Source of the DNA: Allopusillimonas soli
Lineage (GTDB): Bacteria; Pseudomonadota; Gammaproteobacteria; Burkholderiales; Burkholderiaceae_B
Direction of reading: 5' to 3'
DNA length: 64,000 bases
Assembly: GCF_004153445.1 (NCBI RefSeq)
Contig: NZ_SDQC01000004.1
Location: 1-64,000, forward strand
The translations under genes and the position numbers were made by a program. The notes under the pieces are model-generated. The model was given only the letters and a program-made list of their open reading frames with translations, searched no databases and was not told the origin of the DNA. Positions 36,727-64,000 of this stretch are shown one piece after another. Each line of letters begins with the position of its first letter. Positions within the stretch are counted from its first letter, which is position 1.

Positions 36727-36732
36727 ATTATT

Positions 36733-38895
<2,163 letters not shown>

Positions 38896-49245: not shown

Positions 49246-50340
49246 TCAAACCAGGCGTCGGCGCAGATAGTCCCGCACCTCCCGGCGATTGCCGCTGAAG
49301 ATAATGCGATCCTGGCGCTGCCGCCGCTGGTAGGCGTACATAGGATCATAATAATGGCGCAGCAACTGGTCTATCCATACGCGATGGCTCGCGGTTCCGT
49401 TGCCCGCCGCCTGCGACTTCAGCGCCTGTCGCATATGGGCGGCCAACTGGCGGTAGCGCTCCTCGCCCAGCCGCCTGGCGATTCGGGCGAGGCCAGCCAG
49501 CAGATGATCCGAAAAGGCCGCCATGCCGGCCTCAGGGCCGTGCAAGGCCACAAACTCGCCTGATAGGTCCAGCACGTAGTCCCGCAGGATGCGGTCTGTG
49601 CGTGCGGACAGATCTTCGTCCAGCCATACCAGGGGATAGCGCTGCATGCCATCCCGCAAAGGCAGCGGCAGGTTGCAGCTGCCTATCATGCGGCCTTCTT
49701 CCTCCAGTGCCAGCTCGCGCAGGCCCAGCGCCTGCTTTTTGAGCAAGGCTATGGCCAGCGCGTTCTCGAAGTCGATTTGCGTGGGCTGCGGTGTTGCGTG
49801 GCGGCCGAAGCTTGAGCCCCGATGATGCGCCAGGCCTTCCAGGTCGATTGCATGTTCCAGCTCGTGCAGCAGCGCCGTCTTGCCGCTACCGGTCAGCCCG
49901 CCAACCAGTACGAAACGGCCGGTTTGAAAGGCCTGCGCCATCACACCGGCGAGATAGGCGCGCAGCGCCTTGTAGCCGCCCGCGACACGAGGATAGTCTA
50001 TGCCGGCTTGCGCCAGCCATTGCTGGGCGATCTGGGAGCGCAGCCCGCCGCGGAAGCAGTACAGATACCCGTCCGGATGCCGGCGCGCGAAACGGACCCA
50101 TGCGGCGATGCGTTCGTCGCGCACGGCGCCCGAAACGAGTTTGTGGCCCAGCGCAATGGCTGCCTGCTGGCCTTGCCTGGCATAGCAGGTGCCCACGGCC
50201 TCGCGCTCGCTGTCGGTCATCAGCGGCAGGTTTACGGCATGTGGAAACGCACCCCTGGCGAACTCCACGGGTGCGCGCATGTCCATCATGGGCGTATCGG
50301 CCAGGAACAGCGCGCGATAGTCCTGCGTGTCGCCGCGCAT
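49246..50340 (-). CDS. selU: tRNA 2-selenouridine synthase SelU (MnmH)
   Basis: SelU replaces sulfur by selenium at wobble 2-thiouridine of tRNAs using selenophosphate. The 364-residue protein has an N-terminal rhodanese domain with the catalytic Cys in [18 protein letters not shown], then a P-loop domain with Walker [13 protein letters not shown]. Its ATG overlaps the selD stop, so the pair is coupled. selA and selB are not in the window, so selenium here may serve tRNA modification. Confidence 0.95.
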
Positions 50341-51374
50341 CAGTTCACCACGACGCCATGAGGCTGCCGCGGCCCCAGGTGCCCAATGGGCGAGAGCCGC
50401 AGGCCCAGCGCGGCGGCCTGTGCCAGAAAGTCGTTCACCTCTGCCGGTTCGACCGCCACGAGCAGGCCGCCGCTGGTCTGGGGATCGCAAAGCAGCAGGC
50501 GCTGTTCTTCCCGCATGGGGGCGACGCCCTGCCCATAGCTGTCGAAGTTGCGCTGTGTCCCGCCCGGGACGCAACCTTGAGAAAGATAATGATCGATGCC
50601 TGGAATGCGGGGTACCGCGTCGTAGTCGAGATATGCCGTCAGCCCGCTGCCATCGGCCATTTCCAGCAGATGGCCCAGCAGGCCGAAACCGGTGACATCC
50701 GTCATGGCCTTGACGGCGGGCAGGGTGCCGAAGCGGCTGCCTGCCGTGTTGGGCGTGCACATCCAGTCGCGTGCCACATGCCTGTCTTGCGGCCGCAGCC
50801 TCCCCTGCTTCTCGGCGGTGGTCAGAATGCCCACGCCCAAGGGCTTGGTCAGGAACAGCACGCATCCCTGGGTGGCGGTGTCATTGCGCTTGAGATGCTC
50901 ACGGCGCACCGCGCCGGTCACGGCCAGACCGAAAATAGGCTCGGGCGCATCGATGGAGTGTCCGCCCGCCAGGGCAATGCCCGCCGCATCGCAGGCTGTG
51001 CGCCCACCCCGCACGACTTCGCGGGCGATTTCCGGCGGCAGCACATTCACGGGCCAGCCCAGGATGGCGATCGCCATGAGAGGGGTGCCGCCCATGGCAT
51101 AGATATCGCTGATGGCATTGGTGGCGGCAATGCGCCCGAAGTCGAATGGATCGTCCACGATAGGCATGAAAAAGTCGGTGGTGGATACGATCCCTTGCTG
51201 TTCGTCGATGCCGAACACGGCGGCGTCGTCGCGCGAAGCGTTGCCCACCCACAGGTTGACATCATGGTTCTGCGCGCCGCTGCCTGCCAGGATGACGTCC
51301 AGCACACGCGGAGAAATCTTGCAGCCGCAACCCGCGCCGTGGCTGTATTGGGTGAGGCGTATGGGTTCTGACAT
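50340..51374 (-). CDS. selD: Selenophosphate synthase SelD
   Basis: SelD makes selenophosphate from selenide and ATP. The 344-residue protein has the glycine-rich AGCGCKISP with Cys17 in the position that is Cys or Sec across the family, followed by the catalytic Lys. [28 protein letters not shown] and [20 protein letters not shown] are family motifs. GGAG precedes the ATG at 51374. The minus-strand frame continues open upstream to 52778, but that part is antisense to a CoA-transferase gene and is not SelD. Confidence 0.95.
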
Positions 51375-51608
51375 GCTGGATGCTCCGGAAAGAAATCGCC
51401 AAAAATTGTACCCCCGCCGCCGCGGGGAAAGCCGGTTGCGCGGCGAAAGCGGCCGCTGCGTCATAGGTTGGCGGCCACCTGCGCCGTGGCACAGGAATCT
51501 ATGAAATGGCATATTTGACGCGGGTTTCAGCCATTTTCCCGCGTTCGCTCCAGCATAAGCATATGACAAAAATCCTAATAAATAGGATCTATGTACTAAA
51601 AGTTGAGC
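51375..51608. promoter_or_regulatory. Divergent region between selD and the catabolic cluster
   Basis: This region must hold the selD promoter and the promoter of the first CoA-transferase. It becomes AT-rich near 51560-51600, where ATCCTA/TAGGAT forms a short inverted repeat just before the IclR-like operator. Confidence 0.5.
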
Positions 51609-51626
51609 AATGGAAATTTTTCCATT
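51609..51626. promoter_or_regulatory. IclR-family-type operator
   Basis: AATGGAAA-TT-TTTCCATT is a perfect palindrome with 8-base arms. It closely resembles the IclR operator pattern TGGAAAT-N-ATTTCCA. It lies about 37 bases upstream of the CoA-transferase ATG, where a repressor could block transcription. An IclR-family gene lies downstream in the cluster at 59357. Confidence 0.65.
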
Positions 51627-51662
51627 AGCATTGCCCACACGATGTTCCTCACGAGGCGAGGC

Positions 51663-52817
51663 ATGAAGCAGGAATCTACGCTGGAAGGCGTCCGGGTTAT
51701 CGAGATCTGCAACGTGGCGGCAGGCCCCTTCTGCGGGTTGCTGCTGGCGGACATGGGAGCCGATCTCATCAAGATCGAGCACCCAGGCGGCGGCGACACG
51801 CTGCGTAGCTGGGCGCCCATCACGCAGGGTTACAGCGAGAATTTTGCGTCGCTCAACCGGAACAAGCGGTCGGCGGCACTTGATTTGAAGAATGAGCAGG
51901 ATCGCGACGCGGCCCGCCGGTTGATCGCTTCGGCCGATGTGCTGATCGAGAACAATCGACCTGGGGTCATGGATCGCCTGGGGCTGGGTTATGAGCACAT
52001 GCGCGCGCTGAACCCTCGCCTGCTTTACTGCTCTATTTCGGCCTATGGGCAGTCGGGGCCGCGCAGCCAGGAAGGCGGATTCGACCTGACGCTGCAGGCC
52101 ATGAGCGGCCTCATGAGTGTTACCGGAGAGCAGGGCGGCGCGCCCGTCAAATGCGGTGTGCCCGTGTGTGATTTTGCCGCCGGTCTGTACGCCGCTTTTG
52201 CCATTGCCTCGGCGCTGCGCGCAGTGGAGCGCGACGGGCGGGGTGCGCATATCGATATTTCCATGCTGGGTGCGACGCTGGGCATCGCGGCATTGCAGAC
52301 ATCGCAGTATTTCGGCACGGGCATCAATCCTGAGAAACTGGGCTCGGCGCATCCACGCAACGCGCCGTATCAGGTATTTCGCTGCCGCGGCGGCTATTTC
52401 GGCATGGCTGCGGGCAACGATGCGTTGTGGAAAGCGGTGTGCGCCACCGTGGAACGCATGGACCTGCTTGCGGATCCGCGCTTTGCGAGCACGACGCTCA
52501 GGGCGGAACACCAGGAGGCGTTGCGCGACATCCTGGAAGAAATTTTCGCCGAACACGATGCCACGGCCTGGCTGGCGCGGTTTCGCCAGGCGGGTGTGCC
52601 CTGCGCGCCCATCAACACTTATTCGGATGTGCTGGACGACGAGCAGGTGCGGCACATGAATTGGGTGCAGGCCCTGGATCTGCCCAATGGCGTGCAAACG
52701 CGGACGTTTGCATCGCCCATACGCATGGACGGCAGGACGGCGGATATCCAGCGTCGACCGCCGGCGCTGGGCGAACACACAGACGAAGTGATTGCCGGCA
52801 TATCGGTGCAGTCATGA
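51663..52817 (+). CDS. Family III CoA-transferase (CaiB/BaiF)
   Basis: This 384-residue CaiB/BaiF transferase moves CoA between acids through an aspartyl-CoA anhydride. The N-terminus has [31 protein letters not shown], recognisable in pieces, with [13 protein letters not shown]; the catalytic Asp is probably in [16 protein letters not shown] precedes the ATG at 51663. It is first in the cluster, directly after a palindromic operator, and overlaps the next gene by four bases. Confidence 0.93.
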
Positions 52818-53617
52818 GCGCGCAGCCTTTGAACGCCGCCCTGCGCATTATGCGCCAGCCCGACCACTGGGTTTTTCTTCTCAACAGGCCGGCCAAGCGC
52901 AATGCGTTAAGCGCCGATCTGGTGGAGGCATTGCTGCAGGGCGTGATGTCGGCATTGCAGGAGGATGTGCCATTGCTTGTGTTCCAAGGCGAGGGCAGGA
53001 ATTTCTCCGCAGGCTTCGATTTCACGGATTACGAAGAGCAAAGCGAAGGCGATCTGCTGCTGCGTTTCGTTCGCATCGAGATGTTGCTGGAGACGCTGGC
53101 CACTGCGCCCTGCATGACGCTGGCGCTGGCGCAGGGACGCAACTATGGCGCCGGCGCGGATCTGTTTGCCGCCTGCAGGCGGCGCATCTGCACGTCCGAT
53201 GCCAGCTTTCGCATGCCGGGCTTGAACTTCGGGCTGGTATTGGGTTCGCGGCGCCTGCGCGCAATCGTGGGCGAGGCTGAGGCGCTGCGCATATTGGGCG
53301 AGAGCCTCAGCTTCGACGCCGGCCAGGCGCGTGCCAGCGGCTTCGTCCACGATTTGGCGGACGAGGCAAGTTGGGGTGGAATCATCGAGCAAGCGCGCGA
53401 AGCGGCAGCGGCGCTGGACAGCGATACCAGACACCGCCTGTACGCGGCACTCGACGGACCCGGCGCGAGCGTCCAGCGTCAGCACGACATGGCGGCACTC
53501 GTGCGGTCGGCTGCCAGGCCGGGGCTGAAGGCCCGCATCGGGCAGTATCTGGAAACGCAGAAACCGGCGCTGGCGGGCCGGACGAGTTTGGCGACCGGCG
53601 CGTCCGACAGGACATGA
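52814..53617 (+). CDS. Enoyl-CoA hydratase/isomerase family protein
   Basis: This 267-residue crotonase-fold protein has NRPAKRNALS near the N-terminus, the oxyanion-hole region GEGRNFSAGFDF and the second region GRNYGAGADLFAACRRR. The typical catalytic glutamate of classical hydratases is not obvious, so the reaction (hydration, isomerisation, decarboxylation or hydrolysis) is unclear. Its ATG overlaps the CoA-transferase stop. A C-terminal helical extension is present. Confidence 0.88.
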   Translation: MSAQPLNAALRIMRQPDHWVFLLNRPAKRNALSADLVEALLQGVMSALQEDVPLLVFQGEGRNFSAGFDFTDYEEQSEGDLLLRFVRIEMLLETLATAPCMTLALAQGRNYGAGADLFAACRRRICTSDASFRMPGLNFGLVLGSRRLRAIVGEAEALRILGESLSFDAGQARASGFVHDLADEASWGGIIEQAREAAAALDSDTRHRLYAALDGPGASVQRQHDMAALVRSAARPGLKARIGQYLETQKPALAGRTSLATGASDRT

Positions 53618-53689
53618 TGCGGCGCGCGCAGGCGTGAATGACGGTGCCGCTCTGGCACCGCCGCGCAGTATCCACGTAAGGAGAAGGCG

Positions 53690-54892
53690 GTGAAGATTAC
53701 GCGGGTGGAGACGCTGAGTTGCGATGCGGGATGGCGCAACTATCATTTTCTGAAGATGGAGACCGACGAAGGCCTGACTGGCTGGAGCGAGTATGACGAA
53801 GGCTTTGGCTCGCCCGGCGTGACGGCGGTCATCTCGCAGCTGTCAGGCCTGTTGGTGGGTCAACCTGTGCCGGGTCTTGAGTATTTTCATGCCCAGGCAT
53901 ATAGCCGCACGCGTCCCGCCGCCGGCGGCGTGGTGGCCGAGGGCATGGGTGCGCTGGAGAATGCCCTGCTGGACTTGCATGCCAAGGCGCTGAATGTGCC
54001 TTGCCATGCCTTGCTGGGTGGCAAGGTGCGCGATCGGCTGCGTGTATATTGGTCGCACTGTCCTGCCTGGCGCATCAACCATCCCAAGTACTTCGGTCCG
54101 GCTGTCACGGATCTGGACGGTGTCAGGGCCATGGGCGCGGAAGCTCGGGAGCGGGGCTTCACCGGCCTGAAGACCAATACATTTATTTTTGACGACGGGC
54201 CCGCCTATGCATGGCGCCCGGGCTTTGCGGCACCGTTCTATCCGGAGCTTAACGTGGAGCGCGGGCTTGTACGCAACCTGCAGGCATGCATCGAGGCTTT
54301 GCGCGATGGCGCGGGGCCGGACATGGATATTCTGCTGGACCTGAATTTCAACGCCAAGACCGAAGGCTATCTGAAGCTGCTGCGCGCGATTGCCGATCAA
54401 GACATTTTCTGGGTGGAGATCGACAGTTACAGTCCCGATGCGCTGGCCTACATCCGGAACCACAGCCCGCATCCCATCAGTTCCTGCGAAACACTGTTCG
54501 GCGGGCGGGAGTTCCTGCCTTACTTCCAGAAGAACGCGGTGGATGTGGCCATTGTGGATGTGGTCTGGAACGGTGCGTGGCAGTCACGAAAAATTGCCGA
54601 CCTTGCGGACATCCATGAAGTGAATGTGGCGCCTCACAACTTCTACGGCCATTTGTGCACCATGATGAATGCGCAGTTTGCCTGCACGGTGCCGAACTTC
54701 CGGATCATGGAAACCGATGTGGACCGGCTTGCGTGGGATGACGAGCTGTTCACGCACGTGCCCGAATACCAGGACGGCCACCTCGTCGTGCCCGACCGCC
54801 CGGGCTGGGGCACTGACCCCATCGAAGAAGCAATACGGGCGCATCCGCCGAAGGCCGGCGGAGGCCTGATCAAGCCGCGGCCCCGTTCCTGA
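53690..54892 (+). CDS. Enolase-superfamily (MR/MLE) sugar-acid-dehydratase-like protein
   Basis: The 400-residue protein has the MR/MLE capping domain (ETDEGLTGWSEYDEGFG) and barrel domain. Likely metal ligands are Asp217 (LLDLNFN), Glu243 (FWVEID) and Glu267 (SSCETLF); His316 in VAPHNFYGHL is the probable C-terminal base. The second-strand motif is Lys161-Thr-Asn163 rather than the racemase KxK, as in acid-sugar dehydratases of the galactonate type. The start is GTG with AAGGAG. It probably dehydrates a hydroxy or sugar acid; the substrate is unknown. Confidence 0.88.
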   Translation: MKITRVETLSCDAGWRNYHFLKMETDEGLTGWSEYDEGFGSPGVTAVISQLSGLLVGQPVPGLEYFHAQAYSRTRPAAGGVVAEGMGALENALLDLHAKALNVPCHALLGGKVRDRLRVYWSHCPAWRINHPKYFGPAVTDLDGVRAMGAEARERGFTGLKTNTFIFDDGPAYAWRPGFAAPFYPELNVERGLVRNLQACIEALRDGAGPDMDILLDLNFNAKTEGYLKLLRAIADQDIFWVEIDSYSPDALAYIRNHSPHPISSCETLFGGREFLPYFQKNAVDVAIVDVVWNGAWQSRKIADLADIHEVNVAPHNFYGHLCTMMNAQFACTVPNFRIMETDVDRLAWDDELFTHVPEYQDGHLVVPDRPGWGTDPIEEAIRAHPPKAGGGLIKPRPRS

Positions 54893-54931
54893 CGCGGGCA
54901 CTTGTTCAATTGGATGGAGAGGAAAGACAGC

Positions 54932-55273
54932 ATGTGGATAGATTGGAAAAGCACCCTGAGCAACCTGCGCAAGGCTGGAAGCGCGCTGGCCGAAAAGAAC
55001 CCGCCCCTTGTCAAGGCCTATCAGGGGCTGAACAAATCACTGGGCGAGGGCACGGCGCTTGACGCCAAGACCCGCGAGTTGATCGCGCTGGCCGTGGCCG
55101 TCACCACGCGCTGCGATGGCTGCATTTCTTCGCATTCGGCGGCGGCGCGCCAGGCGGGCGCAACAGCCGAGGAGGTAGCCGAGGCGCTTGGCACAGCCAT
55201 TGCCTTGAACGCCGGGGCCGCGTATGTGTATTCCGCGCGCGCCATGGAAGCGTTCAATCAGTTTTCGGAGTAA
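54932..55273 (+). CDS. Carboxymuconolactone decarboxylase/AhpD-family protein
   Basis: This 113-residue all-helical protein has the AhpD-type redox motif CDGCISSH (C-x-x-C-x3-H), preceded by ALDAKTRELIALAVAV and followed by AEEVAEALGTAIALNAG. Such proteins are peroxidase-like or general CMD-fold proteins. The ATG at 54932 follows a GAGAGGA site. It lies in the catabolic cluster; a detoxifying or redox role is possible but unproved. Confidence 0.87.
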   Translation: MWIDWKSTLSNLRKAGSALAEKNPPLVKAYQGLNKSLGEGTALDAKTRELIALAVAVTTRCDGCISSHSAAARQAGATAEEVAEALGTAIALNAGAAYVYSARAMEAFNQFSE

Positions 55274-55400
55274 GGCCGCATGCCGCCGGCGCATCGGCGC
55301 AGCACCTGCTCGCCGGCAACCACAAGGATTGATTCAGTGTCGCACAAACCATAAAAGGCCCGACGGCGGCAGTTCAGCCCACGGCGCAAAGGAGCGTGGA

Positions 55401-56381
55401 ATGAAGAACGAGGCAAGAAAAACGATAGGCATGGGATTGACGGCGGCATTTGCCGCGCTGGCATGGCTGGCGCCACCGTCGGCACAGGCCGCCTGGCCCG
55501 ACGACCAGCCCATACGGATGATCATTCCCTATGCGCCAGGCGGCGCAACAGATATTCTCGGACGAGCCATTTCCGATAAGCTCGGGCCGCAACTGGGGCA
55601 GACCATCGTGGTGGAGAACAAACCCGGTGCGGGCAGCATGATCGGTTCGGAGTATGTGGTGCGCGCCGAGCCCGATGGCTACACCTTGGTGCTGGGTAGT
55701 ATTTCCAACGTGCTCAATGCTTATTTCTACAAGAAGCCTTTGTACAACCTGCTTACCGACCTGAAGCCGGTCACGCAGATCGTGACGGTGCCCAACTATC
55801 TTGCCGTGAACAAGTCGCTGCCGGCGAAGAACGTGAAAGAGTTGATCGAGCTGGCAAAAAAAGAACCCGGCAAGTTGAGCTGCGCCGTTTCGGGTGTGGG
55901 TTCGTCGCCCTATCTGTCCTGCGAACTGTTCAAGACACTGGCCGACGTCAATATCATCACCGCGCCTTTCAAAGGTGGTGCGCCGGCGATCCAATCCACC
56001 TTGGGCGGGCAGACCAGCATGGTGTTCGCCAATGAAGTGTTTCCCTACATCAGCTCGGGGCAGCTGCGCGGGCTGGGGGTGACCACCAAGGATCGCTCGT
56101 CGTATTCGCCGGATCTGCCCGCAATCTCGGAAACCCTGCCTTCCTATGACGTTACGGCTTGGTACGGTATCTGGGCGCCAATCAAGACGCCCGATGCGAT
56201 TGCCGAACGGCTCAGCAAGGAGGTCAATGAAGTGCTGAAGGATCCGGCCGTGCTGCAAGTGCTCCAGAAGTTGGGTGCAACGCCGGTGCAGAGCAGTCCG
56301 CAGGCATTCGACCGCTATGTGCGGGCCGAAATGGATCGTTGGGGCAAGCTCACCAGAAAGATGAACGTCGAGCCGCAATAG
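55401..56381 (+). CDS. Bug-family (tripartite tricarboxylate transporter) solute-binding protein
   Basis: This 326-residue periplasmic protein has a signal peptide (LTAAFAALAWLAPPSAQA) followed by the Bug-family start WPDDQPIRMIIPYAPGGATDILGR, recognisable in pieces, and ENKPGAGSMIGSE. Bug proteins capture carboxylates and other small acids. No TctA/TctB membrane genes are adjacent, which is common for Bug genes in Alcaligenaceae. GGAG lies before the ATG at 55401. It likely binds the substrate, or a related acid, handled by the cluster. Confidence 0.92.
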   Translation: MKNEARKTIGMGLTAAFAALAWLAPPSAQAAWPDDQPIRMIIPYAPGGATDILGRAISDKLGPQLGQTIVVENKPGAGSMIGSEYVVRAEPDGYTLVLGSISNVLNAYFYKKPLYNLLTDLKPVTQIVTVPNYLAVNKSLPAKNVKELIELAKKEPGKLSCAVSGVGSSPYLSCELFKTLADVNIITAPFKGGAPAIQSTLGGQTSMVFANEVFPYISSGQLRGLGVTTKDRSSYSPDLPAISETLPSYDVTAWYGIWAPIKTPDAIAERLSKEVNEVLKDPAVLQVLQKLGATPVQSSPQAFDRYVRAEMDRWGKLTRKMNVEPQ

Positions 56382-56389
56382 GAGGCATC

Positions 56390-57889
56390 ATGAAACGTCT
56401 GGCGGACTGCCTGTCGCAATGGGCGCAAGCCACGCCCGATGCGCCGGCAGTGTCTGACGCGCATCACGATTGGTCGTATCGCATGCTTGCAATGCGAGTC
56501 GATGAGGCGGCATGTTTTCTGCGTGAACGAGGCGTGGGTGCCGGCGATCGCGTGATGCTGATAGGCGAGAATGGCGCAGCGCTTGCCGCGCTCATTCTTG
56601 CGGCGGGCAGGCTGGATGCCTGGGCTGTGCTTGAGAATGCACGCCGCGCCGCAATGGAGGTTGATGCCGTCCATGCGCACGCGCAGCCGCGTACGGTGGT
56701 CTTTGTGGTGGACAACTCCCCTTCCGCACAGGCGCATGCCGAGCGGCATCAGGCGGCAGCAGTGGCCGCGCCGTTCGGCAATGTTGCGGTGGGAGACCTG
56801 GACGGCGCAAGCGAAGCCGAGCCCGTGGATTCGGATCCGGCCAGCCAGGTGGCCGCGATGATCTATACCACCGGTAGTACAGGCAAGCCCAAGGGCGTCA
56901 TGCTTACGCATGCGAATCTGCTCCACATCGGCGCCCTCATGGTTCGGCAGCGCCATCTGACGCACGCCGACCGGGTCTATGGCATATTGCCGATTACGCA
57001 TGTCATGGGCCTGTCTTCAGGGCTGATTGGCACCTTGTCGGCCGGCGCGCATATCCGTCTGGTGCCGCGCTTCTCCAAGGACGATTGCCTGCGGGCGCTG
57101 CGCGAGGACGGCATCACCATCCTGCAGGGAGCGCCCGCCATGTTCGCGCGACTGGTCCAGGCCATGCCGCGAGGAGAGCGGCTGCAAAGCGCCCTGCGCT
57201 TCATCGCCGTGGGCGGCGCGCCCCTGGATCCGGCGCTCAAGGCGCAGACCGAGTCGGCGTTTGGTCTGACGCTGCACAATGGCTACGGCCTGACGGAAGC
57301 GTCGGCAAGCGCCTGGACGAGGCTCGAGGAGGAGAGTGCCGATTGCTCGGTGGGCCCGCCCAACCCGGGCATGGAGGCGCGCGTGCTTGATGCGCGCGGC
57401 AAGCCGGTCGGGATGGGCGGCACGGGCGAACTATGGGTGCGGGGCCCTTGCGTGATGAAAGGCTATTTCCGCATGCCGGAGCGTACACGCGAAGTGCTCA
57501 AGCCCGACGGCTGGTTCAATACCCAGGATCTCGCACGCCTGACACCCGACGGGCGCATCCATATCGAAGGACGCAGCAAGGACTTGATCATCAGATCGGG
57601 CTTCAATGTGTCGCCGCTGGAAGTGGAAACCGCCCTTAACGCCTACGAGGGAGTGCAATATTCGGCCGTGCTGGGCGTTGCGCAGGACGGCAACGAGGAG
57701 ATCGTCGCCATCGTCGAACCGGCACCGCTCCGACAGTTGACCGAAGCCGCGCTGCGCGATTTTCTCACGCAGCGGCTGTCGCCATACAAGCGACCCAGCC
57801 GCATTCTCTTCGTGCAGTCCTTGCCTGTCGCACCCAACGGCAAGGTGCTGAAACATCGACTCAGGGAGCAACTTGGAGACATGCTGTGA
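56390..57889 (+). CDS. Acyl-CoA ligase (AMP-dependent synthetase)
   Basis: The 499-residue ANL-superfamily enzyme activates a carboxylic acid to its acyl-CoA through an acyl-AMP. It shows the P-loop-like YTTGSTGKPKG, the NGYGLTEAS motif, GWFNTQDLARLTPDG and the C-terminal SLPVAPNGKVLK with the adenylation lysine. AGGAGG precedes the ATG at 56390. It follows the Bug gene by eight bases and overlaps the next hydratase by four. The acid is unknown. Confidence 0.93.
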   Translation: MKRLADCLSQWAQATPDAPAVSDAHHDWSYRMLAMRVDEAACFLRERGVGAGDRVMLIGENGAALAALILAAGRLDAWAVLENARRAAMEVDAVHAHAQPRTVVFVVDNSPSAQAHAERHQAAAVAAPFGNVAVGDLDGASEAEPVDSDPASQVAAMIYTTGSTGKPKGVMLTHANLLHIGALMVRQRHLTHADRVYGILPITHVMGLSSGLIGTLSAGAHIRLVPRFSKDDCLRALREDGITILQGAPAMFARLVQAMPRGERLQSALRFIAVGGAPLDPALKAQTESAFGLTLHNGYGLTEASASAWTRLEEESADCSVGPPNPGMEARVLDARGKPVGMGGTGELWVRGPCVMKGYFRMPERTREVLKPDGWFNTQDLARLTPDGRIHIEGRSKDLIIRSGFNVSPLEVETALNAYEGVQYSAVLGVAQDGNEEIVAIVEPAPLRQLTEAALRDFLTQRLSPYKRPSRILFVQSLPVAPNGKVLKHRLREQLGDML

Positions 57890-58632
57890 ATGATGCCGTA
57901 ACCTACGAATCGAAAGACGGAATCGCCGTCATATCCATCAACCGGCCGGACAGGCTCAACGCCATCGGGCCGGAAGTGGAGGCCGGCTTGGCCAAGGCGT
58001 GGGAGCGCTTGCGCGACACCGAGGAAGATCGCGTCGGTATTCTCACCAGCGTGGGGAACAAGGCCTTCTCGGCGGGCAAGGACATGAAGTCCTCCGCGCC
58101 ACCCGACTACCGCAGCTTCACACCGGGTGTGGGCGTGCTCATAGAAAAGCCGCTTATTGCCGCGATCAGCGGCTGGTGCATAGGCGGGGCCATTGTGCTC
58201 ACGCAGATGTGCGACCTGTGTGTGGCGACCGAAGACGCCAAGTTCACGTATCCGGAAGCCAAGATGGGTTTCGCCGGCGGCATGATCGCATCGCTGGCGG
58301 CACGCATACCGCTCAAGGTCGCGATGGAGCTCATGCTTCTGGGCGAGGTCATTGACGCGCGCAGGGCCTACGAGGTAGGCATGGTCAATCGCCTGGTGCC
58401 GCCGGGGCAGCATCTGGAGGAGGCGATGAAGCTTGCGCGCCGTCTGGCTGACAACGCGCCGCTGGTCATGACCATGCTCAAGCGGTTCGCCGCCGCGACT
58501 GTGCCGCAAAGCCCTGTCGAAGTGGCCGGACATGCCTGGCGCGAGAACGAGCGTGTGTTTCGCAGCCATGACTTTCAGGAAGGCCTCGACAGCTTTGCGC
58601 AGAAGCGCAATCCCATGTTCAAAGGAAACTAG
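57886..58632 (+). CDS. Enoyl-CoA hydratase/isomerase family protein
   Basis: This 248-residue crotonase-fold protein has INRPDRLNAIGPEV, the oxyanion region GNKAFSAGKDMK and SGWCIGGAIVLTQMCDLCVA, then FTYPEAKMGF. The start is a GTG overlapping the ligase stop (GTGA); an ATG follows after it. It is unlike the first hydratase of the cluster (52814), so the two probably act on different CoA esters. Confidence 0.92.
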   Translation: MNDAVTYESKDGIAVISINRPDRLNAIGPEVEAGLAKAWERLRDTEEDRVGILTSVGNKAFSAGKDMKSSAPPDYRSFTPGVGVLIEKPLIAAISGWCIGGAIVLTQMCDLCVATEDAKFTYPEAKMGFAGGMIASLAARIPLKVAMELMLLGEVIDARRAYEVGMVNRLVPPGQHLEEAMKLARRLADNAPLVMTMLKRFAAATVPQSPVEVAGHAWRENERVFRSHDFQEGLDSFAQKRNPMFKGN

Positions 58633-58677
58633 CGACCGCGTTGCCCAGCCTGCTGCGCGGGGGCGAAGGAGCAGGAA

Positions 58678-59283
58678 ATGGAACCAGGAATTGATCGACT
58701 ACGCCAGTTTGTCGTGCAGGCCACGCGGCTGGCGGATCAGGGACTTCTGGCGGAGATGCCGCCGGCGTCGCTTCTCACGGCATTCCAGCGTCTGGTGAGT
58801 CATGACGACTGGCTGCCGGCCGATTGTGCGCGTCCGGATCCGGCTCACTATCAACAGTACCTGCTGCATTGCGATCCATGTGAGCGTTTCTGCATCGTGA
58901 GCTTTGTATGGGGCCCCGGCCAGTCCACGCCGGTGCACGACCATACGGTCTGGGGCTATGTGGGTATGCTGCGCGGCGGCGAGATGAGCCAGCGCTATGC
59001 CCGTACCGCCGAGGGGGGCTACGAAGCGCTTGGCGAGCCGGTTCGGCTCGCTCCCGGCGAGGTTGAGGTACTGTCGCCGCGCGACGGCGACATACATAAA
59101 GTCTGGAATGCGCAGCGCAGGCGCGCCTCGATCAGCGTGCATATGTACGGCGGCAATATCGGGGCCATCGTGCGGCATGTGTACGACACGCGCACGGGCC
59201 AGGCGCGGCCGTTCGTGTCCGGCTACTCATCCAGGCAGGTGCCCAATCTGTGGGACCGCTCCGCCAGCGTCCGCGCGGCCTAG
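58678..59283 (+). CDS. Cysteine-dioxygenase-like cupin (thiol dioxygenase)
   Basis: The 201-residue protein has the CDO/thiol-dioxygenase pattern with the three iron-ligand histidines His87 and His89 in STPVHDHTVWG and His140 in GDIHKVWN. The Cys-Tyr crosslink residues of mammalian CDO are not required in bacterial 3-mercaptopropionate-type enzymes. Family members oxidise cysteine, 3-mercaptopropionate or mercaptosuccinate. Its place among CoA genes hints at a sulfur-containing acid or a side product. AGGA precedes the ATG. Confidence 0.87.
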   Translation: MEPGIDRLRQFVVQATRLADQGLLAEMPPASLLTAFQRLVSHDDWLPADCARPDPAHYQQYLLHCDPCERFCIVSFVWGPGQSTPVHDHTVWGYVGMLRGGEMSQRYARTAEGGYEALGEPVRLAPGEVEVLSPRDGDIHKVWNAQRRRASISVHMYGGNIGAIVRHVYDTRTGQARPFVSGYSSRQVPNLWDRSASVRAA

Positions 59284-59356
59284 TCCGCCGGCGCGGAAGA
59301 TTGCCTGTCCTGCGGCCCATGCTATCTTCTCAGCATTGCAAACTGGGTTCTGGGCA

Positions 59357-60145
59357 ATGGACAAGACACTATTGAAGGGGCTCATGGTCCTTGAGGCCGT
59401 GACCGACATGGACCAGCCGCCCCGCACCGTGGACGAGCTGGCTGCGCTGGTTGGCCTGACGCGCAGCAATGCGCATCGTACGCTGCAGACGCTGATACAT
59501 GCGGGCTATGTGGCCCGGGACGAGCGCGGCGGCGGCTATCGCGGCACGATACGCCTGTTCGAACTGGGTGCGCGGCAGCTGGCGCAGCTCGATATCCGCA
59601 AGGTGGCCTCGCCCCTGATGCAGGCGCTTGCCGACAAGACGGGAGAAACCGTGCATCTGTCTGTGCTTGACGGCTTCGATGTGGTGTACATCGACAAGAT
59701 CGATTCGCCGCAGCCTATACGCGCCTATTCCATGGTTGGCGGACGTGCGCCCGCCTATGCCGTGGCCACGGGCAAGGCCTTGCTGGCCTATCAGCCAGCC
59801 AGCTATGTCGAAGCGCGCGCCGATGCCTTGATATCGCATACGCGCGCAACGCTCACCAGCCTTTCCGCGCTGCGCGATGACCTCGCGCGCACACTGAAGC
59901 AGGGTTATGCCGTCAACAGAGGGGAGTGGCGCGAAGGCGTGGGTGGCGTGGCGCGGGTAGTTTTCGACAGCCTGGGCCAGCCCATGGCGGCGGTGGGCAT
60001 ATCGGGGCCGCTCGACCGGCTTACACCGGCTCAGGTCAGGCGTTTCGCACCCGAGGTGGTCAGCTGCGCTGTGGCCATATCGCGCGACATGGGCTACAGA
60101 GACGCGGCGCCGCGGCGCCGCGGCGCCAAGGCCGGGCTATCATAA
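59357..60145 (+). CDS. IclR-family transcriptional regulator
   Basis: This 262-residue regulator has an N-terminal winged helix (TVDELAALVGLTRSNAHRTL) and a C-terminal GAF-like effector domain (TGETVHLSVLDGFDVVYIDKI). It is oriented with the cluster and lies between the dioxygenase and the lyase. It probably senses a small organic acid and controls the cluster; the TGGAAA-TT-TTTCCA palindrome at 51611 fits an IclR site. The final residues are Arg/Gly-rich. Confidence 0.93.
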   Translation: MDKTLLKGLMVLEAVTDMDQPPRTVDELAALVGLTRSNAHRTLQTLIHAGYVARDERGGGYRGTIRLFELGARQLAQLDIRKVASPLMQALADKTGETVHLSVLDGFDVVYIDKIDSPQPIRAYSMVGGRAPAYAVATGKALLAYQPASYVEARADALISHTRATLTSLSALRDDLARTLKQGYAVNRGEWREGVGGVARVVFDSLGQPMAAVGISGPLDRLTPAQVRRFAPEVVSCAVAISRDMGYRDAAPRRRGAKAGLS

Positions 60146-60222
60146 GTTCGACGCACGTTCCCGCGTCGCGATATAAAACCCATGCGTATTGTCGGCAAGA
60201 CCGGCACCGGAGGAAGAGAGAA

Positions 60223-60294
60223 ATGAATGCTGCACAGACTGTAGCGCCGCGCTCGACGGCGAGCCGCGACAAGGCAATGGGGGGCCAGCCATGA
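60223..60294 (+). CDS. Short coupled leader ORF (23 codons)
   Basis: An ATG with GGAGG nine bases upstream opens a 23-codon frame (MNAAQTVAPRSTASRDKAMG and three more codons) whose stop overlaps the lyase ATG by ATGA. The strong ribosome site belongs to this frame rather than to the lyase. It may be a translational-coupling leader or the start of a deleted gene. No homology is recognised. Confidence 0.5.
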   Translation: MNAAQTVAPRSTASRDKAMGGQP

Positions 60295-61169
60295 TGCGAT
60301 CGCTGCTGTTCGTACCCGCCGATAGCGAGCGCAAGCTCGAGAAATCGTTGCAAAGCGGCGCCGATGCGCTCATTTTCGATCTTGAGGACGCCGTGTCGCT
60401 CGCGCGCAAGGAGGATGGGCGCCGCTGCCTGGCGGGTTTCCTGGATGCGCAGCGCGACGCAGATGATTTGCCCGCACTGTATGTTCGCGTCAATGCGCTG
60501 TCCACCGGCATGACGCTGGCTGACCTTGCCGCAGTCATGCCTCATCGGCCAGCCGGGGTGGTTTTACCCAAATGCGCCGGGGCAGCCGATCTGCTCAGGC
60601 TCGCGCATTACCTGGAAGCCTTCGAGCACCTGCACCCGGGCGGGCGTACCGGCCGCGAGACATCCATCATCGCCATCGTCACAGAGACCGCCGAATCGCT
60701 GGCGCACCTCAATGAATATACGCAGGCCGGGCCTCGTCTCGCGGGAATGATGTGGGGTGCCGAAGACCTCTCGGGTGATGTGGGCGCCCTGGCCAGCAAG
60801 TGCGAGGAGGATGCGCAGGCATGGACGGCGCCTTTCACGCTGGTGCGCTCGCTTTGTCTGTTTGCCGCTGCCGCGGCGGGTGTGCCCGCCATCGATACCG
60901 TACCCACCGAGATCAATAATCCGGATGGCCTCCGACGCGAAGCTCGCCAGGCTTATCGGGATGGATTCACGGCCAAGGCGGCCATCCATCCGGGCCAGGT
61001 GCCTGTCATCAACGAGGCGATGACCCCGGATGCAGCATCGCATGAATGGGCGACGCGCGTTATCGCCGCGTTTGAGGCCAGCGCGGATGTCGGTGTGGCC
61101 ACCCTGGACGGCAAGATGCTGGATACGCCGCATCTGAAGCTCGCGCGCAAGATACTCGGCGTGGCCTAG
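60291..61169 (+). CDS. HpcH/HpaI-family CoA-ester lyase (CitE-like)
   Basis: The 292-residue protein is a CitE-like lyase that cleaves or forms C-C bonds of malyl-, citramalyl- or similar CoA esters. It has RSLLFVPADSERKLEKSL, FDLEDAVSLARK with the metal-site acid, IVTETAESLAHLNEY and MWGAEDLSGDVGAL. It would produce acetyl-CoA or pyruvate plus an aldehyde or keto acid. Start: ATG 60291 within the coupled overlap; a second ATG follows at once. Confidence 0.92.
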   Translation: MMRSLLFVPADSERKLEKSLQSGADALIFDLEDAVSLARKEDGRRCLAGFLDAQRDADDLPALYVRVNALSTGMTLADLAAVMPHRPAGVVLPKCAGAADLLRLAHYLEAFEHLHPGGRTGRETSIIAIVTETAESLAHLNEYTQAGPRLAGMMWGAEDLSGDVGALASKCEEDAQAWTAPFTLVRSLCLFAAAAAGVPAIDTVPTEINNPDGLRREARQAYRDGFTAKAAIHPGQVPVINEAMTPDAASHEWATRVIAAFEASADVGVATLDGKMLDTPHLKLARKILGVA

Positions 61170-61240
61170 CGCGCAGCGCGCCGTGGCGCCACCGCCGCCG
61201 GCAACGCCTTGCCGAGCAAACCATCAAAGGAGGATCTCTC

Positions 61241-62392
61241 ATGTCGGGGCCGCTTGCGGGAGTACGCATCATTGATCTGACCGCTGTGGGCATGGGTCCG
61301 CATGCAACGCAGATACTGGGCGACATGGGCGCCGATGTCATCAAGGTGGAGTCGCCCGAAGGCGATCTGTTTCGGCATGTGGCGCCCGCTGTGCATCCTG
61401 GCATGAGCGCCGCTTTCATGCAGCTGAACCGCAACAAGCGCAGCGTGGTGTTGAACCTGAAGCAGGAAGCTGACGTTGCTGTGCTCAAATCCCTGCTTGC
61501 GGATGCCGACGTGCTGGTTTCGAGCATACGCCCGCAGGCCATGCGAAGGCTGGGTCTTGCCTATGAGGCGTTGCAAAAGGAGAATCCCAGGCTGATCTAC
61601 TGCGGCGTCTACGGCTTTTCTGAAAAGGGCCGCTACGCGGGGCGCCCGGCCTTTGACGACATCATCCAGGCGCGTAGCGGGCTGGCCGGTCTCCAGGGGC
61701 GTGGCGAGGGCCGCGAGCCGGCCTATGTCAACACGGTAGCCGCCGACAAGATTGCAGGCATGGCAGCCGCGAGCGCCATAGGCATGGCGCTGTACGAGCG
61801 CGAAAAGTCCGGCCTGGGCCAGGCCATCGAGGTGCCCATGTTTGAAACCATGGTGTCGTTCAATCTGGTCGAGCACATGGCCGGTGCGACCTTCGAGCAA
61901 TGCGATGCGCCCATGGGCTATGGCCGTGTTCTGTCGCCTCATCGCAAGCCTTACCGCACGTTGGACGGCTACATCAGCATGCTGCCCTACACCACGGAGC
62001 AGTGGCGCCGGTTCTTCGAACTGGCGGGCCATCCCGAGCATGCACGCAATCCCCGCTTCATGGATCCGGCGCAGCGTGCGGCAGAGATCGGACACATGTA
62101 CGCCCTGGTGGCGGATATCGTGGCCGGGCGCAGCACCCAGGCCTGGATCACGCTGCTTGAAGATGCCGACATTCCGGTGGCGCCGGTGTCGGCATTGGAA
62201 GACCTGCTGGATGACCCGCATCTGCGCGATATCGGTTTTTTTCATACGGCAGTGCATCCGACCGAGGGGCGAATCACGCTTACCGGTATTCCGGTGACGT
62301 TCTCTCGCACGCCCGGCGACATCCGCCGCCTGCCGCCCAGCCTGGATCAGGACGGCGATGTGATACGCCGGGACATCGCCGGCACCGACTGA
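61241..62392 (+). CDS. Family III CoA-transferase (CaiB/BaiF)
   Basis: The 383-residue CaiB/BaiF protein has GVRIIDLTAVGMGPHATQILGDMG recognisable in pieces, LNRNKRSVVLNLK and the probable catalytic Asp in GRPAFDDIIQARSG. AGGAGG precedes the ATG. It resembles the next transferase (62598) more than the first one of the cluster. The stop lies inside a 17-base tandem repeat. Confidence 0.93.
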   Translation: MSGPLAGVRIIDLTAVGMGPHATQILGDMGADVIKVESPEGDLFRHVAPAVHPGMSAAFMQLNRNKRSVVLNLKQEADVAVLKSLLADADVLVSSIRPQAMRRLGLAYEALQKENPRLIYCGVYGFSEKGRYAGRPAFDDIIQARSGLAGLQGRGEGREPAYVNTVAADKIAGMAAASAIGMALYEREKSGLGQAIEVPMFETMVSFNLVEHMAGATFEQCDAPMGYGRVLSPHRKPYRTLDGYISMLPYTTEQWRRFFELAGHPEHARNPRFMDPAQRAAEIGHMYALVADIVAGRSTQAWITLLEDADIPVAPVSALEDLLDDPHLRDIGFFHTAVHPTEGRITLTGIPVTFSRTPGDIRRLPPSLDQDGDVIRRDIAGTD

Positions 62393-62433
62393 TACATAGC
62401 GCCGACTGACACATAGCGCCGACTGACACATAG
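62383..62433. repeat. 17-base tandem repeat, three units
   Basis: Three head-to-tail units of CGCCGACTGACACATAG (the first with two changes) span the stop codon and 41 bases beyond. The first unit contains the last codons and TGA of the CoA-transferase; the others add further TGA/TAG codons. Confidence 0.95.
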
Positions 62434-62456
62434 CAAATAATGCCGTGCATTAGTGT

Positions 62457-62478
62457 AAGCCCCCAGAAAGAGGGGCTT
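62457..62478 (+). terminator. Hairpin between the second and third CoA-transferases
   Basis: AAGCCCC and GGGGCTT pair around an eight-to-nine-base loop. A T-tract is absent, so it may be a weak terminator or an mRNA 3' stabiliser. Confidence 0.5.
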
Positions 62479-62597
62479 GTCGCGCGCTGTGCGCCTTGTT
62501 ATTCTTTTGCTGGATACAGAAAAACAATTCGCATCTGTGAAAAGCAGGATGGCGCATCAAGGCGCCCGCAGGCTCGAAAAACAGGAGAGCGGCAGCA

Positions 62598-63815
62598 ATG
62601 GGTGGTCCACTGGAGGGAGTGCGGATACTGGACATGACAACGGTCCTCATGGGGCCGTACGCGTCCCAGGTTCTGGGCGACATGGGCGCGGAAGTCATCA
62701 AGGTGGAGTCTCCGCAGGGCGACCTGGTGCGCGGTCTGGGGCCCCTGCGGCATCCCGGCATGGGCGCCTTGTTTCTGCACATCAATCGCAGCAAGCGCTC
62801 GGTGGTGATAGATGCCAAACAGCCGCGCGGGCGGGAAGCGCTGCTTCGCCTCGCCGCCAGATCCGACGTGCTGCTGTACAACGTGCGGCCGCGGGCCATG
62901 GCGCGTCTGGGCCTGGACTACGAGACTGTTTCGGGTGTTAATCCGCGCATCATATACCTGGGCACCTTCGGCTTCGGCCAGGGCGGCCCTTATGCCGCCA
63001 AGCCTGCATTCGACGACCTCATCCAGGGCGCCATAGGGCTGCCTTCCCTGATCAAGGCATCGGGATCCGATGTGCCCAGATATGTGCCGTCCAATATCGT
63101 GGATCGCACCGTCGGGCTGTACGCCGTGGCGGCGCTGTGCGGGGCGCTTTATCATCGCGAGCGAACAGGCCGGGGCCAGCGCATCGATGTGCCCATGTTC
63201 GAGACCATGGTCAGCCATCTGCTCAGCGACCACATTGCGGGGGAGACATTCGATCCGCCCGAGGGCCCCACCGGCTATGCGCGACTGCTGGCCGCCAACC
63301 GCCGCCCCTATCGCACGCGCGATGGCTACGTGTGCGCAGTCATCTACAACGACAAGCAGTGGGCGTCATTCTTCCGCATCATCGGGCGGCCGGAGGCCAT
63401 GTCCGATCCGCGCCTGGCCGATCTGGATACACGCACGCGCAACATCGACGACCTGCAGGCCATGGTGGGCAAGATCTTTCTTGAGCGCGGGACAGAGGAA
63501 TGGCTGGCTTTGCTGGAGGAAGCCGATATCCCCTGCATGCCGCTGCACGACATGGATTCCATTCTGGAAGATCCCCATCTGCGCGAAGTTGGTTTTTTCC
63601 AGTGGGAAGACCATCCGAGCGAGGGCCGCGTGCGGTCGGTTGGCGTGCCTGCGAGCTGGTCGGATTCTCAGCCCAGGCCGGGACGCCCCGCGCCGCGTTT
63701 TGGCGAGCATAGCGCAGAGGTTCTGGCCGAGGCCGGCTATGACGCCGACGAGATTGCCGCCATGGCGCGTGATGGAATCACCCATCTGGCCGAAGCCCCG
63801 CAGGAGGCCGAATGA
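62598..63815 (+). CDS. Family III CoA-transferase (CaiB/BaiF)
   Basis: The 405-residue CaiB/BaiF protein has GVRILDMTTVLMGPYASQVLGDMG recognisable in pieces, INRSKRSVVIDAK and the probable catalytic Asp in KPAFDDLIQGAIG. AGGAG precedes the ATG. It overlaps the next gene by four bases. Together with the transferase at 61241 it could form a heteromeric enzyme or act on successive acids. Confidence 0.93.
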   Translation: MGGPLEGVRILDMTTVLMGPYASQVLGDMGAEVIKVESPQGDLVRGLGPLRHPGMGALFLHINRSKRSVVIDAKQPRGREALLRLAARSDVLLYNVRPRAMARLGLDYETVSGVNPRIIYLGTFGFGQGGPYAAKPAFDDLIQGAIGLPSLIKASGSDVPRYVPSNIVDRTVGLYAVAALCGALYHRERTGRGQRIDVPMFETMVSHLLSDHIAGETFDPPEGPTGYARLLAANRRPYRTRDGYVCAVIYNDKQWASFFRIIGRPEAMSDPRLADLDTRTRNIDDLQAMVGKIFLERGTEEWLALLEEADIPCMPLHDMDSILEDPHLREVGFFQWEDHPSEGRVRSVGVPASWSDSQPRPGRPAPRFGEHSAEVLAEAGYDADEIAAMARDGITHLAEAPQEAE

Positions 63816-64000
63816 CGCTGGCGCACGTGACACCGGCATGCGCGGACCAGCTGCGGACGTTGTCCGCGGATCAGCTCGATCTGCGTCGCTTTATCCGTCC
63901 GGGCGACACTATTCTGTGGGGTCAGGGGCCAGCCGAGCCGCTTGCCCTCTCCCGGGCCGTGGTACGTCAGCGACACGCCTTGGGCGGCTGCCGGGTTTTC
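63812..64000 (+). CDS. Acetyl-CoA hydrolase/transferase-like protein (partial, runs off the window)
   Basis: Sixty-three codons are visible. The segment LRRFIRPGDTILWGQGPAEP followed by LALSRAVVRQRHALG matches the N-terminal glycine-rich CoA-binding part of acetyl-CoA hydrolase/transferase (family I CoA-transferase) proteins. The ATG overlaps the preceding stop (ATGA). The catalytic glutamate would lie beyond the window edge. Confidence 0.75.
   Translation, partial: MTLAHVTPACADQLRTLSADQLDLRRFIRPGDTILWGQGPAEPLALSRAVVRQRHALGGCRVF

Follow-up and report, generated by a model that had tools for sequence, protein, structure and literature searches.

Two neighbouring catabolic gene sets in Allopusillimonas soli: candidates for the breakdown of an organosulfur acid and of a dicarboxylic acid

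What is broken down by the dense run of CoA-dependent genes that closes a 64,000-nucleotide stretch of Allopusillimonas soli DNA (hereafter the window), and does the run encode one pathway or two? The stretch belongs to the genome of a relative of Bordetella and Advenella and carries two neighbouring gene sets, entirely on the + strand: cluster A, from 51663 to 60145, and cluster B, from 60291 to 72017, which extends 8 kb beyond the end of the window. An even chance is given to the proposal that these are two neighbouring catabolic systems, A for a sulfur-containing carboxylic acid and B for a dicarboxylic acid. To judge from its sequence, the likeliest role of cluster A is to break an organosulfur acid down into a mercapto-acid and a product at the level of acryloyl-CoA. 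An earlier note on this DNA had described one uncharacterised cluster for the CoA-dependent use of a hydroxy or sulfur-containing acid. The genes are indeed contiguous, but they fall into two units, of which B has its own IclR regulator, a TRAP transporter, an acyl-CoA dehydrogenase and two MaoC-like genes; a CoA-dependent route for such an acid is supported for cluster A. In keeping with that note, the gene set of A and B was recognised in none of the papers listed by searches of an open-access library, and cluster A is rated as new, as a variant of the organosulfur catabolism that yields mercapto-acids.

Cluster A was followed in other genomes through ENO, its mandelate-racemase-like member of the enolase superfamily. 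With the ENO protein as query, 20 named loci were fetched, and 20 further regions were obtained from 19 of the 52 matches listed and from a second species of the same genus (G001; G and L numbers denote fetched genomes and loci, G000 being the genome of the window). Among 399 genomes of the same order, with at most four candidates scored in each, at least 44 hold a match at E<=1e-110. In a tree of 41 sequences, the window ENO and 12 others form one clade (support 100/99), and the neighbours within 10 kb of ENO were counted in the 13 loci of this clade and, as an internal control, in 28 loci outside it; L013 and G018, apparently the same genome with identical coordinates, were counted once, and some loci on both sides have short flanks. 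Gene calls in the fetched loci came from a simple script based on codon-position GC. The second crotonase (ECH2) accompanies ENO in all 13 clade loci and in one outside locus, and the CMD/AhpD-fold protein (CMD) in 12/13 against 1/28. None of the remaining cluster genes occurs beside any of the 28 outside relatives: within the clade the CoA ligase and the periplasmic binding protein Bug are each present in 12 of 13 loci, the acrylyl-CoA reductase AcuI in 11, the thiol dioxygenase MDO in 10, the regulator IclR1 in seven, and the CoA-transferase CaiB1 and the first crotonase (ECH1) in four each. The members of cluster A stand together in loci of Bordetella, Achromobacter, Advenella and Herminiimonas, and P. 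heleia has ECH1, CaiB1, MDO, CMD, Bug, ENO and ECH2 within about 19 kb.

The gaps in this company are as follows. MDO is missing near ENO in L011, in L022 (where it lies about 12 kb away) and in L091 (where it is on another contig); CMD is missing in L091, whose right flank measures 2 kb; the Bug gene of L019 is truncated at a contig edge; and in L022 an ADP-forming-type ligase, with a profile match below its cut-off, takes the place of the AMP-forming one. AcuI is missing beside ENO in L022 and in the window locus, and all 10 cluster copies scanned pass its cut-off of 440 (of 11, L018 being left out). As a separate observation, three consecutive genes of G001 (L110:3826-6146) are ECH2-like, CMD and 3-mercaptopyruvate-sulfurtransferase-like, the last with 122.7 bits against a cut-off of 250; a more distantly related ENO lies some 4-5 kb away.

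The second line of evidence comes from MDO. The gene that the earlier note had called a thiol-dioxygenase-like cupin matches its Pfam family weakly, but its closest solved relatives are 3-mercaptopropionate dioxygenases. In the alignment the three His that bind iron and the Arg that binds the carboxylate are present in 17/17 sequences, and the S-H-Y triad in 16/17, so that by sequence g08 is predicted to be a 3-mercaptopropionate dioxygenase; it is the sole MDO match in G000 at E<=1e-20. A split with 100/100 support in the MDO tree places nine Alcaligenaceae cluster copies, that of the window included, on one side, and on the other the copy of the Herminiimonas cluster, those that accompany CaiB1-ECH1 in P. 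heleia and G001, and five others. Two adjacent thiol dioxygenase genes, one of them with Phe for the Tyr of the triad, were seen in G358 (L171:8494-10109).

Genes of these kinds are already associated with organosulfur acids. In Advenella mimigardefordensis DPN7, the 3,3'-dithiodipropionate (DTDP) cluster MIM_c31380-31430 places side by side a family III CoA-transferase, the desulfinase Acd, the 3-mercaptopropionate dioxygenase Mdo, a protein with an AhpD core and two TctC proteins, according to the part of PMC5373536 consulted. Cluster A resembles it in the transferase (CaiB1, a family III member, shares a gene run with MDO), the dioxygenase, the AhpD-type protein and TctC; unlike it, the DPN7 cluster has the desulfinase and LysR control, and its gene list, as given in that part of PMC5373536, holds no enolase, CoA ligase or AcuI. 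Variovorax paradoxus TBEA6, which degrades 3,3'-thiodipropionate (TDP), likewise has Mdo and several crotonases, together with Act and, unlike cluster A, the desulfinase AcdA, as excerpted from PMC6370202; both likenesses were drawn from gene descriptions and not from sequence, and imply no orthology. Excerpts from the same source indicate that growth on TDP requires crotonases and that one of the routes proposed there splits TDP-CoA by beta-elimination into 3-mercaptopropionate and acryloyl-CoA, and the part of PMC8102459 consulted reports that a TctC protein is required for growth on TDP. Cluster A, together with AcuI, offers candidates for the CoA activation, crotonase, acryloyl-CoA removal and MDO steps of this TDP-CoA route. 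The word 'enolase' is absent from the main text of all three papers (PMC5373536, PMC6370202 and PMC8102459). The organosulfur reading of cluster A is thus preferred because the ENO clade keeps the company of MDO, AcuI, ligase, ECH2, CMD and Bug, and because the published DTDP cluster joins MDO, AhpD, TctC and a family III CoA-transferase. To name a hydroxylated thioether acid as the substrate would be guesswork.

Several observations weigh against the organosulfur reading. No 3-sulfinopropionyl-CoA desulfinase (AcdA) over the cut-off of 600 was found in G000, where the best of 26 matches scores 297.8, and AcdA exceeds that cut-off in just one of the 11 cluster A genomes searched. This bears on the idea that cluster A is simply the DTDP/3-mercaptopropionate pathway of the Advenella/Variovorax type, which the four shared gene kinds would favour; cluster A is not that known DTDP/TDP pathway because G000 lacks a desulfinase over the cut-off, and with ENO, the CoA ligase and AcuI also missing from the published list this idea is regarded as very unlikely, and membership in the plain DTDP pathway was rejected. 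The Herminiimonas genome speaks for the organosulfur reading: AcdA (628.7 bits) and a further family III CoA-transferase stand there beside the orthologs of IclR1, ECH1 and CaiB1, and a different contig carries MDO, ENO, CMD, AcuI, ligase and ECH2. The pairing of CaiB1-ECH1 with MDO in P. heleia and G001 points the same way. An order-wide scan for AcdA, with at most four candidates scored per genome, exceeded the cut-off in 2/399 genomes. The AcdA stretches of G137 and G276 (the latter ending at a contig end) contain no MDO or CMD match, so that outside the ENO clade the linkage of MDO, AhpD and TctC is that of the published cluster alone. Sulfite dehydrogenases over their cut-offs were found in the L017 and L020 loci (SoxC-like in L017, SorT in L020), with SoxC relatives in L018 and in one locus beyond the ENO clade, L023; they stand near cluster A in few loci and near one outside-clade ENO, which is too few to carry weight.

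A further point on the negative side is the absence of AcuI from cluster A of the window, the AcuI of G000 (554.3 bits) being encoded elsewhere in the genome. AcuN, AcuK and AcuI form a set for acrylate and 3-hydroxypropionate. It could be supposed that cluster A is a set of this kind, for use or detoxification, in which the dioxygenase is incidental, and AcuI beside the cluster in 11/13 loci agrees with it, as do the crotonases and CoA-transferases. Such a set leaves ENO, CMD and MDO unexplained, and its AcuI is not in the locus at the window, so that the supposition is held to be highly doubtful.

Also to be set against the organosulfur reading are the dependence among the 13 clade loci, which include five from Bordetella and three from Advenella, and the behaviour of the ENO relatives outside the clade (about 56-70% identity), which stand without the genes of cluster A; in L026, L106 and L109 the relative adjoins an oxidoreductase of the GMC family, assigned by profile matches below cut-off in L026 and by similarity in L106 and L109. 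These neighbours hint at a sugar- or polyol-derived acid in those loci. Because the outside relatives lack the cluster A genes and three of them lie beside GMC genes, the substrate of ENO may be a hydroxy acid without sulfur. In its full form, this alternative has cluster A break down a hydroxy acid or sugar acid that lacks sulfur, through dehydration by ENO and CoA chemistry, with MDO only serving thiol protection or cysteine-like recycling. The best NCBIfam profiles of ENO are those of acid-sugar dehydratases (galactonate and mannonate dehydratase), all below cut-off; outside-clade relatives lie beside GMC oxidoreductase, aldehyde dehydrogenase or GPH-type transporter genes (the last two read by eye); and the Herminiimonas cluster has a D-2-hydroxyacid-dehydrogenase-like gene. 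This does not account for the way in which MDO and AcuI go with the ENO clade and never with the control loci. Moreover, 14 positions set the clade apart from the remaining sequences, and three of these (125, 270 and 292) lie within three residues, along the sequence, of the invariant active-site positions H123, E267/G271 and D290; these clade residues hint at a substrate different from that of the outside relatives. On balance, the sulfur-free alternative is judged unlikely, if still to be reckoned with. A small gluconate-dehydrogenase-subunit-like gene follows the GMC oxidoreductase in L026 and L109 (by eye).

As for the chemistry of ENO itself, residues 1-395 match the PDB group 2oo6/3go2/3sn0/3sn1/3sn4 at 707.5 bits. 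Its depositors named the 2oo6 group 'putative L-alanine-DL-glutamate epimerase', and the likeness to ENO is one of sequence match only; no tested function for the group was found, and when the open-access literature was searched by PDB codes the titles listed, 12 of 38, were all unrelated. Residues D217, E243, E267, D290, H316, E341, K161 and N163 are invariant in 41/41 ENO sequences. Following the enolase superfamily, we take D217, E243 and E267 to be the three acidic metal ligands and D290 and H316 the His-Asp dyad of mandelate-racemase-like enolases, and ENO thus has the full complement of both. The KxK motif is the mark of two-base racemases. ENO has K161-x-N163 instead in 41/41 sequences, and because KxN replaces KxK and a single His-Asp dyad is present, as judged from the family, elimination appears more likely than racemisation.

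The two crotonases differ in the catalytic residues of their families, namely the two Glu of canonical enoyl-CoA hydratases. ECH2 has both in 16/16 sequences. ECH1 has neither in the window copy: when it is aligned with 5zai, the first is Gly and the second Arg. The first is Gly in 7/7 ECH1 sequences, and the second is Arg or Ser in 6/7, with Glu in L020.

Under the organosulfur reading, a route for cluster A can be drawn, in which every step is inferred from protein family and gene company. The Bug protein would bind the acid for uptake. ENO would take the alpha proton via the His316-Asp290 dyad and expel the beta leaving group, which could be water or the thiolate itself, and the AMP ligase would form the CoA thioester. 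ECH2 may then eliminate the thiol from, or hydrate, a beta-thio- or enoyl-CoA, and the AcuI reductase, encoded beside cluster A in most relatives and elsewhere in G000, would convert acryloyl-CoA to propionyl-CoA. The released mercapto-acid would be oxidised by MDO to the sulfinate, on which CaiB1 would load CoA, with ECH1 or another enzyme helping its breakdown to sulfite. In a sharper version the ENO clade would be a new kind of C-S lyase acting on a beta-thio acid, such as a thioether formed from 3-mercaptopropionate and either lactate or propionate: it would abstract the alpha proton and drive out the thiolate, which MDO would oxidise, with ECH1 and CaiB1 replacing the desulfinase where AcdA is absent. 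This is a conjecture with little probability behind it; a literature search for a link between such thioethers and enolases listed one paper, on S-(2-carboxyethyl)cysteine. If the organosulfur route were true, an enolase group known from solved structures (that of PDB 2oo6) would be tied to organosulfur-acid catabolism, as would a Glu-poor crotonase near PDB 3isa, which is named only 'putative'; small substrate panels for testing ENO and ECH1 would follow, and mercapto-acid oxidation in these bacteria would often proceed without the known desulfinase.

The other half of the question, whether A and B act as one, can be addressed by their occurrence in other genomes. The earlier note had pictured its genes as a single pathway. 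Extended to the whole run, this idea would have one pathway over 51663-72017 in which A feeds B. The common strand and dense packing of the genes speak for it, and in G001 an almost complete cluster B starts about 5 kb beyond the end of CaiB1-ECH1-MDO. Nevertheless, G136 and G211 have cluster B without ENO or MDO in the fetched stretches, and in those from Bordetella, Achromobacter, Advenella and Herminiimonas cluster A is accompanied by neither CitE nor MaoC nor the B-type acyl-CoA dehydrogenase; furthermore, an IclR and a transporter component belong to each cluster separately. The single A+B pathway was rejected on the separate occurrence of the clusters in the fetched stretches of other genera, and one joint pathway now seems rather improbable. 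A link between A and B within the genus is possible, and their neighbourhood there may be old, because G001 has CaiB1-ECH1-MDO near its cluster B.

The probable substrate of cluster B is a small dicarboxylic acid, and by analogy it is a probable variant of C5-dicarboxylate degradation. It shares with itaconate/methylsuccinate degradation (ict-ich-ccl-mcd-msi) and RipABC, as described in the part of PMC12290011 consulted, the CoA-transferases, a MaoC hydratase, a CitE-type lyase and an acyl-CoA dehydrogenase, and differs from them in having a TRAP transporter and IclR within the cluster. The acid would be taken up by the TRAP transporter, activated by CoA-transferase, oxidised by the acyl-CoA dehydrogenase, for which methylsuccinyl-CoA is a putative substrate, hydrated by MaoC and cleaved by CitE, as in itaconate/methylsuccinate degradation. 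MaoC1 passes the Pfam mesaconyl-CoA hydratase family PF19315 (69.1 bits, cut-off 26.5) as well as PF01575 (96.3 bits, cut-off 27), and no MmgE/PrpD gene is present among the 12 genes of cluster B. The RipC/Ccl cut-off of 375 is missed by CitE (177.4 bits), with 0/5 genome matches above it, and the RipB/Ich cut-off of 340 by MaoC1 (143.1 bits) and MaoC2 (28.3 bits); membership of cluster B in RipABC was rejected on these scores. The gene that had been described as acetyl-CoA hydrolase-like (g13) does match PF13336 and is cut by the window end, but its closest relatives are 4-hydroxybutyrate CoA-transferases. When 13 of the 26 g13 matches listed were fetched as regions, cluster B (IclR, TRAP, CaiB3, MaoC1, CitE and acyl-CoA dehydrogenase) was found in two, G136 and G211. 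The G001 copy comprises 11 orthologs, CaiB3 among them at 73%, and one other family III CoA-transferase.

The gene classes named by the earlier note are all present as + strand open frames with profile support: three family III CoA-transferases, the CoA ligase, two crotonases, the enolase-superfamily protein, CMD, Bug, the cupin, the CitE-like lyase, IclR and the acetyl-CoA hydrolase-like gene. The start of the first gene lies more likely at the ATG at 51663. Pfam matches back the families of 20 of the 21 genes of A and B; MaoC2 has none at E<=0.001. The tight packing with overlaps is likewise confirmed, as g01/g02, g06/g07 and g12/g13 overlap by 4 bp, like g13/g14 beyond the window, and the remaining gaps between window neighbours measure 8 to 205 bp. 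CaiB1 has succinate--glutarate CoA-transferase as its best NCBIfam profile (332.5 bits, under the cut-off of 750). The whole genome (4.15 Mb) holds 28 PF02515 matches, and family III CoA-transferases as such are therefore common in it.

Table. Genes of clusters A (g01 to g09) and B (g10 onwards), in coordinates of the window and its continuation
Gene	Assignment	Position	Strand	Basis
g01 CaiB1	family III CoA-transferase	51663..52817	+	PF02515 437.3 bits
g02 ECH1	crotonase fold, Glu-poor	52814..53617	+	PDB 3isa 292.3 bits; PF00378
g03 ENO	enolase superfamily, mandelate-racemase-like	53690..54892	+	PF13378, PF02746
g04 CMD	CMD/AhpD-fold protein with CxxC	54932..55273	+	PF02627 75.2 bits; TIGR00778 68 bits (cut-off 27.8)
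g05 Bug	Bug/TctC periplasmic binding protein	55401..56381	+	PF03401 213.5 bits
g06	AMP-forming acyl-CoA ligase	56390..57889	+	PF00501 271.1 bits, PF13193
g07 ECH2	crotonase, both Glu positions intact	57886..58632	+	PF00378 152.4 bits
g08 MDO	thiol dioxygenase, 3-mercaptopropionate type (predicted)	58678..59283	+	PDB 3uss/4tlf 225.7 bits; PF05995 26 bits (cut-off 23)
g09 IclR1	regulator	59357..60145	+	PF01614, PF09339
g10 CitE	CitE-like C-C lyase	60291..61169	+	PF03328 120.8 bits
g11 CaiB2	family III CoA-transferase	61241..62392	+	PF02515 372.8 bits
g12 CaiB3	family III CoA-transferase	62598..63815	+	PF02515 369 bits
g13	4-hydroxybutyrate-CoA-transferase/RipA-like	63812..65146 (window part to 64000)	+	PF13336
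IclR2	regulator, outside window	65143-65877	+	
DctQ, DctM, DctP, DctP	TRAP transporter, outside window	65926-69885	+	
Acyl-CoA dehydrogenase	outside window	69895-71061	+	
MaoC1	outside window	71088-71540	+	PF19315, PF01575
MaoC2	MaoC-like, outside window	71553-72017	+	weak NCBIfam and PDB matches

Some neighbouring genes were read by eye, namely those for TctA, the GPH transporter, the SoxD cytochrome, a beta CoA-transferase subunit, MFS, SelD, MnmH and nitroreductase. A scan for promoters and terminators was uninformative, with 7 promoter-like sites against 6.2 in shuffles and 21 terminator-like sites against 15.0. Upstream of cluster A, on the - strand of the window (49246-51400), lie selenophosphate synthase-like and tRNA 2-selenouridine synthase-like genes (by eye). 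Farther away, a TPP riboswitch is found at 36730-36841 on the + strand of the window (60.6 bits, Rfam gathering score 54.3). Finally, a similar nitroreductase-like gene, again read by eye, flanks cluster B both in G001 (L175:14166-14924) and in G000 (at about 73 kb of contig C13).

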